Positions 2,088 through 11,899 of a stretch of DNA of 39,662 nt are shown piece by piece; position 1 is the first letter of the stretch; every line of letters starts with the position of its first letter. A program made the position numbers and the translations under genes. The notes beneath the pieces are model-generated. The model was not told the origin of the DNA, did not search any database, and saw only the letters and a program-made list of their open reading frames with translations. The stretch lies in NCBI GenBank assembly GCA_025354825.1, contig JANXMC010000533.1:1-39662 (forward strand), written 5' to 3'. Origin of the DNA: Myxococcales bacterium. Its GTDB lineage: Bacteria > Myxococcota_A > Polyangia > Polyangiales > Polyangiaceae.

Positions 2088-2135
2088 CGCGGGCGGAGCG
2101 CCCCACTGCGGGAGCTGTGCTACGGGCAAGCACCG

Positions 2136-2804
2136 ATGCTCTGCCTGAAGGTACCGACCGACCCTGCGTGGGCGAAGCTCGCGTCGGCCGATCTCGACGA
2201 CGTGCTCGTCGATCACGCCCACTGCGAGATGAAGGCCGCCTCGAACGCTCTCGCCCTGGCCGCACGCCACCCCTCGCGGACGTCCCTCGTGAGGGCGCTG
2301 ACGTCGCTCGCCCGTGAGGAGCTCGACCACTTTCAGGCCGTCCTCGCGCTCCTCGAAAAGCGCGGCCTTCCGCTGGGCGAGCCACGCGTCGACACCTACG
2401 CCGCCGAGCTTCGGCGTGCGGCGGGCGCCGTCTTGAAGCCGCCGAAAATGGCCGCTGCGGGGACGCCGGCGGCCGAAGTTCGATGGCAATTGGTCGATCG
2501 GCTGCTCATTGGCGCGGTCATCGAGGCGCGGTCGTGTGAGCGCTTCAAGCTGATGATCGAGGCCCTCGAGGCGCGGGTTGCCGCGGGCGATCACGCCCTC
2601 GACGATGTGCTTGTACTCTACAAAGAGCTCTTCCCCGCCGAGGCGCGCCACTACCGAACCTTCGTCGACCTCGCCGTCGTCGAAGCGGCCGGGAACGACG
2701 ACGCGGTGCAGGCGCGACTCGCCGCCCTCGCCGTCGAAGAGGCGCGCATCGTCGCTGCCCTCGACGCCAGCGACGACCCTAACCGCGCGACGATTCACGG
2801 CTGA
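2136..2804 (+). CDS. miaE: tRNA-(ms2io6A)-hydroxylase-like protein (MiaE family)
   Basis: DHAHCEMKAASNALALA, REELDHFQAVLALLEKRGLPLG, LIGAVIEARSCERFKLMIEAL, LYKELFPAEARHYRTFVDLA: diiron ExxH motifs of MiaE. Confidence 0.9.
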   Translation: MLCLKVPTDPAWAKLASADLDDVLVDHAHCEMKAASNALALAARHPSRTSLVRALTSLAREELDHFQAVLALLEKRGLPLGEPRVDTYAAELRRAAGAVLKPPKMAAAGTPAAEVRWQLVDRLLIGAVIEARSCERFKLMIEALEARVAAGDHALDDVLVLYKELFPAEARHYRTFVDLAVVEAAGNDDAVQARLAALAVEEARIVAALDASDDPNRATIHG

Positions 2805-7388: not shown

Positions 7389-7637
7389 CTTGTGGTGTTT
7401 CCGCGCGCGCCTTCGTGGCGGCGCGTTTGGCGCCGTCCGCGCGGCCCACTCGAAACGATTTTCGGCTCTGAACGCCTCCACGTCGACTGCGCTCCCGCGT
7501 AGCGACGCGGGGCGAGCGCTCTTGTCCGTGATGTTGAAAATGGCAGGCCTGGAAACCGGCGCGTTGCAGCCGCGCGCACCGGCTCATGGGGGGACTTGCT
7601 TCGATGGAGTTGTTACAGGCCGAGATGACAGTCACAT

Positions 7638-7680
7638 GGCGCGAGACGACAGCGCGCGAGACGACCGCGCGCGAAGCAAC
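7638..7680 (+). repeat. 15-bp tandem repeat, about 3 copies (gcgcgagacgac unit)
   Basis: ggcgcgagacgac / agcgcgcgagacgac / cgcgcgcgaagcaac; if translated it gives RETTARETTAREA in the extended DnaA frame. Confidence 0.7.
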
Positions 7681-7735
7681 GTGGGTCGACGTCGTAGGTT
7701 CGAGCTGGATTCAAGGATCTCCACTGCAGGCACGC

Positions 7736-9244
7736 ATGCTGGGTAGAGAAGACAGCAAAGAGGCAACGCTCTGGAACGACGCGATCGCGTACACGCGCGC
7801 GAAGTCGCCGGGGTCGTTCGATCAGTGGTTTTCCGGCGTCCAGTACGACGGCCTGACGGACGGCGTCCTCTGTCTGCGCGCCCGCGACGAGTTCGTGCGC
7901 GCGTGGGTCGACGACCACTTCCTGCCGACGATTGCCGACCGCATTCGCGAGCACACGGGGTGGAGCGTTCAGGTCGCGTGGACGGTCGACAGCACTCTCG
8001 ACAAGCCTGTCGCGAATCAACCCGCGCCTGCGCCCGTGCGTCCGCGCCCGCTCACGCTGCGCCACTCGTCGGCGCCGCCGCCGCCGCTCCCCCCGCCGCC
8101 GGCCCATGCTGAGGACGCGCCGATTCCGATCCCGATGGGCGTCGACGCGGAGCTCCACTCGATGCGCGGCATCGCCGTGGGTGAGCGCAACGAGATGGAG
8201 CTCGTGGCGCCTGCCGTCGACGGCCTCAATGGCAAGTACACGTTCTCCAACTTCGTCGTCGGCCCGTCGAACCAGCTCGCCCACGCCGCCTGCATCGCGG
8301 CCGCGGGTGGCGGTGGCCGTCGCCACAACCCGCTCTTCATTTGCGGCGGCACCGGCCTCGGCAAAACGCACTTGGTGCACGCCGTCGCGCACCGCGTTCG
8401 CACCGAGCACCCGGGCGCGCGCATCCTTTACCTGTCCGCCGAGAAGTTCGTGAACGAGTTCGTCGATGCGCTCAAAGAGCAGCGCATGACCGAGTTCCGC
8501 GCGCGCTACCGCGACAAGTGCGATCTGCTTCTCATCGACGACATTCAGTTTCTCGCGAACAAGCCGCAGACGCAGGAGGAGTTCTTCCACGCGTTCAATA
8601 CGCTGCACCAGGCGGGCAAGCAGATCATCGTCACGAGCGACAAGTATCCGCAGCAGCTCGAACGGATGGAAGAGCGGCTCATCTCGCGCTTCACGTGGGG
8701 GCTCGTGGCGGACATCCAGGCGCCGGAGCTCGAGACGCGCGTCGCAATCGTCGCGAAAAAAGCGCAGATCGAGCGCATCGACATCGGCGACGACGTTCTC
8801 CTCTACATCGCGCAGAGCGTTCGCTCGAACGTGCGCGAGCTCGAAGGGACGCTCATTCGCCTCGCGGCGAAGTCGTCGCTTCTAGGTCGCATCGTCGATC
8901 TCGAGTTCGCTCGAAACGAGATCTCGGCGACATCGAGCACGCGTGCGAGCGAGACGAGCCTCGAGGACATTCAGCGCGAGGTTTGCCACCACTTCAAGCT
9001 TCGAAGCGTCGACCTCTTCGGCAAGGATCGCCACAAAAGCGTGGCCTTCGCGCGCCACGTGGCGATGTACCTTTGCCGGCAGCGCCTGAAGTGCAGCTTC
9101 CCCGAGCTCGGTCGCGCCTTCGGTAACCGTGACCACACGACGGTCATGAGCGCCGTGCGCAAGGTCGAAGCCCTTCGTGGGACCGATCCTGAAGTGAGAG
9201 CGCACCTGGAAGCGCTCGAGCGGAAGCTCGGCACCAACGATTGA
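7736..9244 (+). CDS. dnaA: chromosomal replication initiator protein DnaA
   Basis: Walker A GGTGLGKTHL, Walker B LLIDDIQFL, KYTFSNFVVGPSNQLAHAA, domain IV FGNRDHTTVMSAVRKVE. ORF opens at 7586; 7736 chosen because DnaA domain I begins LWNDAIAYTRAK; the true start is uncertain. Confidence 0.95.
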   Translation: MLGREDSKEATLWNDAIAYTRAKSPGSFDQWFSGVQYDGLTDGVLCLRARDEFVRAWVDDHFLPTIADRIREHTGWSVQVAWTVDSTLDKPVANQPAPAPVRPRPLTLRHSSAPPPPLPPPPAHAEDAPIPIPMGVDAELHSMRGIAVGERNEMELVAPAVDGLNGKYTFSNFVVGPSNQLAHAACIAAAGGGGRRHNPLFICGGTGLGKTHLVHAVAHRVRTEHPGARILYLSAEKFVNEFVDALKEQRMTEFRARYRDKCDLLLIDDIQFLANKPQTQEEFFHAFNTLHQAGKQIIVTSDKYPQQLERMEERLISRFTWGLVADIQAPELETRVAIVAKKAQIERIDIGDDVLLYIAQSVRSNVRELEGTLIRLAAKSSLLGRIVDLEFARNEISATSSTRASETSLEDIQREVCHHFKLRSVDLFGKDRHKSVAFARHVAMYLCRQRLKCSFPELGRAFGNRDHTTVMSAVRKVEALRGTDPEVRAHLEALERKLGTND

Positions 9245-9249
9245 GAACG

Positions 9250-9283
9250 AAGCCCCTGCTGAGCAATCAGCCGGGGCTTTTTC
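9250..9283. terminator. Rho-independent terminator between dnaA and the convergent CysRS-like gene
   Basis: AGCCCCtGCTGA-gcaa-TCAGCcGGGGCT followed by TTTTT; GNRA-type GCAA loop. Confidence 0.8.
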
Positions 9284-9289
9284 GTTTCG

Positions 9290-10357
9290 CTAAACGTGCA
9301 CTCGCCAGGTAGTGGCAGCCGCGCTGTCGAAGAGCTCGATGCCGAGCGTTTCGAGCTCGGCGCGGAGGGCGTCGGCGCGGTCGAACTCTTTTGCGGCCCG
9401 CGCGGCGACCCGTTCGTCGACCTTCGCCTGCACGCTGTCGGCGTCGAGCTTTCGAAGCGCCAGCCTCCGCGCGGTCGTGCGCGCGGCGTAGTCGTCGTGG
9501 GGCGCCTGCAACAGGCCGAGAGTCGCGCCGCCGTTCGTGATCCCCTTCGCGGCTTTCGCGGCGAGGCCGCGGGCGCCGAGAAGCGCGCGGGCGTCTTTGG
9601 TTTTGGCCGCCTGCATGAGCACTTCGTTCCCGGTGCGCGCGATGTCCGTGAGCGCGGCGAGGGCTCCTCGCGCGTCGAGATCGTTCTCGAGGGCTGCGAG
9701 CAGGCGCTCGGGCGCCTCGGCGAGGACGGCGGCTTGGAGCGCCATTCCCGTTGCCTGGTGCGGGCGCGCACCGTCGGCGAAGCGGAGGAGCGCCGCGCGC
9801 GTCGTGTAGAGGTAGTCGACGCGCCGCTCCGCATCGTCGACGGCGGGGAAGCTCGCCGTGCCGTCCGTGCCGGTCTCGGTTTCGAGCAACAGCGGCGCCC
9901 GGTAGTGCGTGCCGAGGGCCGCGTAACGGAGAGCGTCGACGTCGTTGCGGGCGAGGACGTCGTGAAGGGGCGTCGACCCGGTGGAGCCCACCGCCGCGCG
10001 GAGCCAGACGCTCGCCGCGGGCTTGGTGTCGCTCGCGACCTCGCCGCAGAAAATGTCGAACGTGGTGCCCGCTCCGGCTTCATCGCCGTCCTGCGCGCGG
10101 GCGAGTGTCACGACGCCGCCGCGCATACGGAGCGCCCGGACGAGCACGTCGAACACCATGAGCGCGCGGGCCGCGGACACGTTGGCGCCTTCGTCCGTTG
10201 CCGTGCCCGAAACGAACATGGTCACAGCCGCGGCTTTCGAGCCGGACGAGCGTGCGATCAGCGGCTCGATCGCATCGGAGAGCGCGTTGTAAACGTGGAA
10301 GCCCGACGAGGGCGTGGCGGGGGGCGTGACGGGACCGGTTCGCGTGGGGGGCATCAA
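9290..10357 (-). CDS. degenerate cysteinyl-tRNA synthetase-like protein (predicted non-catalytic paralogue)
   Basis: ARALMVFDVLVRALRMRGGVVTLARAQD, TTFDIFCGE, LHDVLARNDVDALRYAALGTHYRAPL, AKEFDRADALRAELETLGIELFDSAAATTWRV all match CysRS segments; HIGH and KMSKS are absent. Confidence 0.82.
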   Translation of the reverse strand: MMPPTRTGPVTPPATPSSGFHVYNALSDAIEPLIARSSGSKAAAVTMFVSGTATDEGANVSAARALMVFDVLVRALRMRGGVVTLARAQDGDEAGAGTTFDIFCGEVASDTKPAASVWLRAAVGSTGSTPLHDVLARNDVDALRYAALGTHYRAPLLLETETGTDGTASFPAVDDAERRVDYLYTTRAALLRFADGARPHQATGMALQAAVLAEAPERLLAALENDLDARGALAALTDIARTGNEVLMQAAKTKDARALLGARGLAAKAAKGITNGGATLGLLQAPHDDYAARTTARRLALRKLDADSVQAKVDERVAARAAKEFDRADALRAELETLGIELFDSAAATTWRVHV

Positions 10358-10409: not shown

Positions 10410-11039
10410 ATGCGAAGCGTTTGGCTTGATCTCGGCGTCAGCGTCAGCGTCAGCCTCGGCCTCGCCCTCCGTGTGGGCGTCGTCGTCACGCTTGCGGCTG
10501 CAACGGCGGCCGTTGGCTGCGGTGGCGGCCGCGCGCCGTTCGACGGCACGACCTACCGCGACGGCGCCATCGCCTTCCGGGTGCCGCCGGCCCCCGCGGG
10601 GTGGCGCCCCATCGCCGTCACCGACGCGACGCTGGCCTACCGCGACGACGCGGACGACGCCTCCGTGCTCGTGAACGCGCGCTGCGGCGATCGCCAGGCG
10701 GACGCGCCCCTCGAGGCGCTTCGCAACCACCTGCTCGCGGGGACGACCGCGCGCGAGCTGTCGTTCGAAGAGACGATCCCCTTCGACGGCCGCGAGGCGC
10801 TGCACACGCACGCCGTCGCGAAGCTCGATGGCGTGCCGATGGGTTACGACATCTTCGTTCTTAAAAAAGACGGCTGCGTCTACGACTTCGTCCGCGTCTT
10901 CGCGCCCGCGCCCGCGCCCGGTTCCGTCTCGTCGGGCGACGCAGGCACGCCGCTGACGCTCGCGCCGGGGGGCGCCGCCTTCGAAGGCTACGTGAAGAGC
11001 TTCCACACGCTTCCACGCGGACGCGGAGGCGCCTCGTGA
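10410..11039 (+). CDS. putative lipoprotein
   Basis: N-terminal hydrophobic region ending AATAAVGCGGG; last codons overlap the GTG of the next gene. Confidence 0.75.
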   Translation: MRSVWLDLGVSVSVSLGLALRVGVVVTLAAATAAVGCGGGRAPFDGTTYRDGAIAFRVPPAPAGWRPIAVTDATLAYRDDADDASVLVNARCGDRQADAPLEALRNHLLAGTTARELSFEETIPFDGREALHTHAVAKLDGVPMGYDIFVLKKDGCVYDFVRVFAPAPAPGSVSSGDAGTPLTLAPGGAAFEGYVKSFHTLPRGRGGAS

Positions 11040-11899
11040 CGCCGCCCGATCGTCCGAGCGCGCCTAGCTCCGAGCGCGCCAGCCGCCGCCCGAGCGTCCT
11101 GCCCCCGCCCGCCCTCGTGGCGTTGCCGCCCGCGCGCCACCGCATCACGAGCGCGATGCAGCAGATCGGCGAAGTGTCCGAGCTCACCTGGCACGTGATT
11201 CGAAGCGCGCTTCGTCGGCCGCTCGAAATCCCGGCCACGATCTACCAAATGGATTCGCTCGGAATCCGCTCCGTGATGATCGTCGCCGTCACGTCGATCT
11301 TCATCGGCATGGTCATGACGATTCAGTTCGCCTGGGGCCTCAAGCGCTTCGGCGGCGTCGATTACATCCCGCGGGTCATTGTCCTTTCGTTCGTCCGCGA
11401 GCTTGGCCCGACGCTCACGGCCGTCATCGTCGGCGGCCGCATCGGCAGCGGCATGGCTGCGGAGGTTGGCGCGATGAACGTCACCGAGCAGGTCGACGCG
11501 ATTCGCGCCCTCGGCGCCGATCCGGCGAAGAAGCTGGTGCTCCCGCGGGTCGTCGCCGCGATGATCGTGATGCCGGTGCTGAGCGCCATCTCCGATTTTC
11601 TCGGAACGATCGGCGCAATCATCATCTGCGCGACGCAGTTCGACATCTCGCCGCAGCTCTTCGTGCGGAGCGCGCTCGACTCGCTGGTGATCTCGGACTT
11701 TCTGGCCGGCCTCGCGAAAACGCCTGTTTTTGGCTACATCATTGCGATCGTCGGCTGCCACTTCGGCCTCCGCACGACGGGCGGAACCGAAGGCGTCGGC
11801 ACCAGCACCACGCGCTCCGTCGTGGCGATCTCGATCGCGATTTTGATCTCCGATTTCCTCATGACGAAGCTCTTCATGAGCATCGGCTTCAGCCAGTGA
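11036..11899 (+). CDS. MlaE-family ABC transporter permease
   Basis: FVRELGPTLTAVIVGGRIGSGMAAEVGAMNVTEQVDAIRALGADPAKKLVLPRVVA: MlaE signature. Confidence 0.92.
   Translation: MTPPDRPSAPSSERASRRPSVLPPPALVALPPARHRITSAMQQIGEVSELTWHVIRSALRRPLEIPATIYQMDSLGIRSVMIVAVTSIFIGMVMTIQFAWGLKRFGGVDYIPRVIVLSFVRELGPTLTAVIVGGRIGSGMAAEVGAMNVTEQVDAIRALGADPAKKLVLPRVVAAMIVMPVLSAISDFLGTIGAIIICATQFDISPQLFVRSALDSLVISDFLAGLAKTPVFGYIIAIVGCHFGLRTTGGTEGVGTSTTRSVVAISIAILISDFLMTKLFMSIGFSQ

Follow-up and report, generated by a model that had tools for sequence, protein, structure and literature searches.

A cysteinyl-tRNA synthetase derivative without a catalytic site beside dnaA in a Polyangiaceae genome, with its tRNA-binding half under constraint

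The derivatives of cysteinyl-tRNA synthetase (CysRS) listed in PMC9437257 are catalytic ones only, namely CysRS* and MshC. As far as that account covers it, CysRS* of Desulfobacterales (Mukai 2017, via PMC9437257) keeps catalysis and has lost the anticodon-binding domain. MshC is the CysRS-derived, ATP-dependent cysteine:GlcN-Ins ligase of mycothiol synthesis (PMC9437257; PDB 3c8z). Vertebrate DALRD3 (PMC7237682) has a DALR anticodon-binding domain, is devoid of a recognisable synthetase catalytic motif and binds specific tRNAs for methylation by METTL2. An anticodon-domain-only CysRS was not found in a literature search of partial coverage.

The window, that is, the whole 39.7-kb stretch of DNA that was analyzed, carries a CysRS-derived open reading frame (ORF) of 354 aa at positions 9290-10354 of the minus strand, recognized by translation and by its match to TIGR00435, and without a catalytic site. 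Its direct ancestor is the bacterial CysS (TIGR00435; PDB 1li5, 1u0b, 3tqo, 8qhp), with which it shares the slot beside dnaA in relatives, the DALR and CysS_C domains and the anticodon-side residues, whereas it lacks HIGH, KMSKS, the zinc ligands and approximately 170 catalytic-domain residues. Like CysRS*, it is a bacterial CysRS derivative that has lost part of the enzyme, but as a mirror image, keeping the anticodon-binding domain and not catalysis. The only tRNA gene in the window is one for tRNA-Ser, and on that basis no coupling to SelC*/SelB* of the CysRS* type was found. MshC, too, is a CysRS-derived protein outside translation; however, it is catalytic, whereas the ATP and cysteine sites and the Cys-ligation core are deleted from the ORF. 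DALRD3 may work in a similar way, as a DALR domain without catalytic motif acting as tRNA-selecting partner of a modification enzyme, although it is ArgRS-related, vertebrate and has a known methyltransferase partner, and we do not claim the ORF as a member. Aminoacyl-tRNA synthetase-derived, non-catalytic tRNA-binding proteins (DALRD3-like, Arc1p-like) form a functional class, not one family; the ORF shares with this class the lack of a catalytic core and a tRNA-binding domain under selection. Its tRNA binding is predicted, and action through a partner would be a further trait of the class.

The stop codon TAG of the ORF was located at 9290-9292 and the start codon ATG at 10352-10354 (translation checked), immediately preceded by a TTG at 10355-10357 as an alternative start. 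TIGR00435 matched with an E-value of 8.5e-15 and 54.8 bits, below the equivalog cut-off of 340; PF01406 (E 5e-4) and PF23493 CysS_C (E 4e-3) matched below gathering. Lying far beyond chance and far under the cut-offs, these model matches show homology to CysRS at the level of sequence comparison. Sequence relatives in the PDB were solved CysRSs only (E 4e-12 to 8e-6). GC content at the three codon positions was 0.73/0.55/0.87 and gene-like in every segment. For the ORF, neither an SD-like sequence nor a sigma-70-like promoter was seen, and no partner gene pointed to a role. The sole dnaA copy in the genome lies at 7586-9244 on the plus strand, followed at 9250-9284 of that strand by a hairpin (AAGCCCC...GGGGCTT) and a T-run. 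This probable dnaA terminator was read directly from the sequence and is absent from the scanner's list. A preliminary description of this DNA had called the ORF CysRS-like and convergent with dnaA; the TIGR00435, Pfam and PDB matches support the former and the gene coordinates and strands the latter.

Following alignment with full-length orthologues, the losses from the catalytic domain could be placed, all on the minus strand. What is left of the Rossmann fold's first half spans residues 17-86 (10097-10306), with 53% of the conserved residues kept and with AlphaFold strands E43-48 and E81-85 and helix H59-77. Within it, codon 49 (10208-10210) encodes Ser for the first zinc ligand, the Cys of CGxTxYD, and codons 58-61 (10172-10183) encode NVSA for HAGH, the family's own form of HIGH. 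Between residues 86 and 95, approximately 145 catalytic-domain residues are missing; the alignment and indel list place the junction of this large in-frame loss, which comprises catalytic domain and CP insertion including GWHIEC with the second zinc ligand, at 10070-10099. The distal catalytic strand remnant, residues 95-128 (9971-10072), has lost GMDLIFPHHEN, an 11-aa deletion carrying the other zinc ligands, and at its end KMSKSLGNF, by a 10-residue deletion with its junction near residue 127. In total, the catalytic domain has lost approximately 170 residues. Because GWHIEC and GMDLIFPHHEN are deleted in addition to the Cys-to-Ser change, the NVSA replacement and the KMSKS loss, both signatures are gone and none of the four CysRS zinc ligands is left, neither the first C, nor the C of GWHIEC, nor the H and E of HHENE.

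Given the established mechanism of class I synthetases, no aminoacylation is expected without these motifs. Catalysis has thus evidently been lost from the ORF, judging from its sequence, and formation of Cys-AMP or Cys-tRNA would not be expected. The loss of HIGH, of KMSKS and of the first zinc ligand had been reported before, and the alignment confirms all three; that report understated the extent, which includes every zinc ligand and the approximately 170 residues. All indels relative to the orthologues are in frame, and together with the codon-position GC this rules out a frameshift or sequencing error as the source of the motif loss.

Retention of conserved residues varies along the ORF, counting as conserved those shared by 90% or more of 20 orthologues. 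From N to C terminus, the ORF keeps 16/30 conserved residues in the N-terminal part (53%), 8/17 in the middle part (47%), 14/23 in the stem-contact region following KMSKS (61%; residues 129-168, 9851-9970, minus strand), 25/32 in the DALR-type helical bundle (78%; residues 169-282, 9509-9850, minus) and 20/21 in the CysS_C anticodon-binding domain (95%; residues 283-354, 9293-9508, minus). The last value bears out the earlier remark that the C-terminal part is well preserved. Both the DALR and the C-terminal anticodon-binding domain of CysRS are therefore present, as seen from the orthologue alignment, which runs end to end at 44-48% identity, and from the fold match to 1u0b_B. Equivalents of E. 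coli R427, D436, D451 and W458 (numbering via alignment), residues which we take to have a role at the anticodon, are present in the CysS_C domain. An AlphaFold model built with 31 orthologues as alignment reached a pLDDT of 88 and a pTM of 0.86, with values mostly >90 from residue 131 onwards, including the DALR helices; the N part was modeled with lower confidence as a shrunken sheet and one helix. The top PDB match of the predicted fold was 1u0b_B, the CysRS-tRNA-Cys complex.

To the right of the ORF, synteny identifies a putative lipoprotein gene (10410-11039, plus strand), the conserved right-hand neighbor of cysS in the family, and an MlaE-like permease gene (11036-11899, plus) as the next conserved neighbor. 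At least eight related genomes (G020, G100, G101, G069, G078, G079, G082 and G098) share the order dnaA, convergent CysRS, lipoprotein, MlaE, and their CysRS in this slot is full-length and canonical; in the tree the ORF nests within the dnaA-type CysRS clade (99*). Named relatives belong to the Polyangiaceae, several of them to Labilithrix. By position, the ORF is the orthologue of the housekeeping CysRS of the family. It is not a duplicate, because it occupies the conserved cysS slot and nests in the dnaA-type clade; synteny and tree rule out a within-genome duplication as its origin. The preliminary term 'non-catalytic paralogue' therefore holds for the first word and not for the second. 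The degenerate ORF adjoins dnaA only because the ancestral cysS already lay there; full-length CysRS fills the slot in those related genomes, and no second degenerate form was found. As a separate observation, the dnaA-cysS gap of a close relative (G020; L035, ~1540-2330) contains repeated copies of a unit with GGCGGCGCTAGCGTCCTGGCGGTTGAAT, also seen at L007 700-1480.

One other CysRS gene is present in the same genome, on contig C827, encoding 576 aa with all motifs intact (CGPTVY, HVGN, GWHIEC, HHECE, KMAKR); the second, intact cysS whose absence would have told against the earlier interpretation thus exists. A single tRNA-Cys(GCA) gene was detected among 42 tRNA hits in the genome. The C827 CysRS forms a clade with those of G062, G063, G065, G101 and G009, separate from the dnaA type, and G003 also carries this type, cut by the contig end. 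In G101, a single-contig genome, both types are present and intact. G062, G063 and G065 have the C827 type but lack the dnaA type, and ~7 kb of other DNA fills the dnaA slot of G062. G071 has another CysRS type; its dnaA and lipoprotein genes lie ~40 bp apart with no cysS between them. Displacement of a synthetase by a foreign copy is well known. Within this one family at least three CysRS types occur, the dnaA type, the C827 type and the type of G071, G114, G116 and G019, representing repeated displacement of an essential synthetase. Another contig (G000:C620:6592-7519; L168) carries eight densely packed tRNA genes (Asn, Thr, Asp, Phe, His, Ala, Gly, Gly). Several of them score low and duplicate tRNAs found elsewhere, and the run resembles a tRNA array of a mobile element or phage.

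C827 is a contig of 4.6 kb in a draft genome of 859 contigs with 4.6% estimated contamination. Its tetranucleotide signature correlated with that of the window at 0.63, with a median of 0.64 for pieces of the window itself, and the loci carrying the C827 type in G062, G063 and G101 correlated with the window at ~0.2. The signature gives no support to C827 being a contaminant, although it might still be one. The same draft state and contamination estimate could suggest an artefact in the ORF or its surroundings, through misassembly, a mis-binned contig or sequencing errors. However, read errors could not give rise to dispersed substitutions, frame-preserving indels and gene-like codon positions together, the flanking genes on either side follow the synteny of the family, the genome has a single dnaA and C827 shares the signature of the window; we consider an artefact very improbable.

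The chief rival is that the ORF is a functionless relic, a displaced CysRS on its way out whose intact frame and conserved C terminus reflect chance or recency. It is in keeping with this that the dnaA-linked cysS has been displaced and wholly lost in other genomes of the family, that the remnant is present in one genome only, and that remnants do occur, as illustrated by G157, which has a 74-aa CysS_C scrap in addition to an intact cysS. Had the ORF evolved neutrally, at 1.26 substitutions per codon, it would have stayed free of stops with a probability of ~0.5-1.5%, which is small and not negligible, so the lack of stops is only moderate evidence for selection. Decay along the gene is unequal, however. 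The share of conserved residues kept differs between the N and middle parts together and residues 169-354 (Fisher p 0.0004). In the N and middle parts, functional orthologues of the dnaA-type clade that had been held out keep 90-100%, and they show no gradient from N to C terminus; more distant functional CysRSs keep 73-100% there, and the C827 type 57-76%.

For the branch of the ORF, a codon model that let omega differ between regions was fitted on a main tree of 13 taxa and on a smaller tree. A uniform neutral mixture, with an equal share of the branch under neutrality for the whole gene, was worse than the free model by a delta lnL of 10.4 on the main tree and 9.3 on the small one, whereas a model that relaxed the N part alone was worse by 0.02 and 0.9, respectively. 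Omega of the C part equalled the background (~0.07), and omega=1 for this part was rejected by 34 lnL. With five control branches as foreground, no such regional pattern appeared. Since synonymous divergence on the ORF's branch is saturated, so that absolute dN/dS values are not to be trusted, and no close relative with the same form is available for a direct dN/dS estimate, the evidence is the contrast between regions. Every segment had a GC3 of 0.86-0.88, compared with an intergenic GC of roughly 0.67. These tests, together with the in-frame indels and the preservation of CysS_C relative to the N part, make a relic less likely, and we regard it as rather unlikely. The earlier statement that the ORF is not a decaying pseudogene agrees with the codon model and the conserved-residue gradient, in the sense that decay is not uniform. 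Constraint has also eased to some extent in the post-KMSKS and DALR parts, and any use of the protein after the loss of catalysis may already have come to an end.

Other degenerate forms were sought widely. Among 108 genomes of the family, 153 genomes of the order (>=85% completeness) and 36 named loci, no comparable truncated CysRS was found, and a scan of genome contigs with the ORF alone as query returned no relative. Scanning with the C-terminal alignment yielded the 36 named Polyangiaceae/Myxococcales loci, nearly all with canonical CysRS motifs; the exceptions were L138, with an interrupted frame, and a few in which one signature is spelled differently. In L138 (PLYU01000244.1) and in G097:C204, the dnaA-type cysS is split over two reading frames (open frames of 386 and 593 aa), probably through an assembly frame error. 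Short CysRS frames in G140, G030 and G150 were ruled out as truncated genes, as they stop at contig ends. The stand-alone CysS_C of G157 (family f8), at G157:C69:23125-23346 (L190, ~2126-2347, minus strand), has its own ATG; no such separate copy was found in four other f8 genomes. It is either a second case of this domain outliving the rest or plain scrap. A catalysis-dead CysRS with a constrained anticodon half was thus seen in one genome only.

Taken together, we slightly favor the reading that the ORF is a non-catalytic tRNA-Cys-binding protein, kept in the ancestral slot of the old cysS after displacement by an acquired C827 enzyme. The lineage's original housekeeping CysRS would then be the ORF itself, still beside dnaA. 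Following acquisition, the CysRS of another lineage would have taken over charging of the single tRNA-Cys, and the old cysS would subsequently have been stripped, by in-frame deletions, of its zinc site, of HIGH and KMSKS and of the greater part of its catalytic domain. The leftover of that domain would be drifting, while the DALR bundle and above all CysS_C would be under continued purifying selection. Because these two domains appear to have stayed under such selection, the protein is most likely a non-catalytic tRNA-Cys-binding factor, which would recognize the anticodon arm. Such a factor might present tRNA-Cys or shield it, or hand it over to a modification enzyme or the C827 synthetase. 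'Kept for another role', as proposed earlier, can thus stand for the tRNA-binding C terminus, where constraint is regional; with neither the cysteine pocket nor any zinc ligand left, the suggested cysteine sensing is unlikely.

Arc1p-type cofactors assist eukaryotic synthetases, and the remnant could analogously act in trans as a tRNA-binding subunit of the C827 enzyme, which would charge while the remnant helps to bind tRNA-Cys. The C827 enzyme comes from another lineage, its C-part keeps few of the natively conserved residues (31% in DALR, 57% in CysS_C) and exactly these parts are retained in the remnant. Against this, the C827 type serves without a remnant in G062, G063 and G065, and the two genes lie on different contigs; such a subunit seems improbable. 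As for the factor kept after displacement, a more specific form is put forward tentatively: the redundant CysRS may have been turned in place into a stand-alone adaptor binding the anticodon arm of tRNA-Cys, with a dedicated role, which would make it a bacterial equivalent of DALRD3 and the reverse of CysRS*.

To our knowledge, the in-between state of a synthetase displacement has rarely been seen. Here it would now be caught, as an old synthetase without catalysis whose tRNA-binding half is constrained. One bacterial family holds the whole series at a fixed slot, with the old enzyme only, both enzymes, the old one stripped and the old one gone, and for this reason the recruitment of displaced synthetases as tRNA-binding proteins becomes directly testable.
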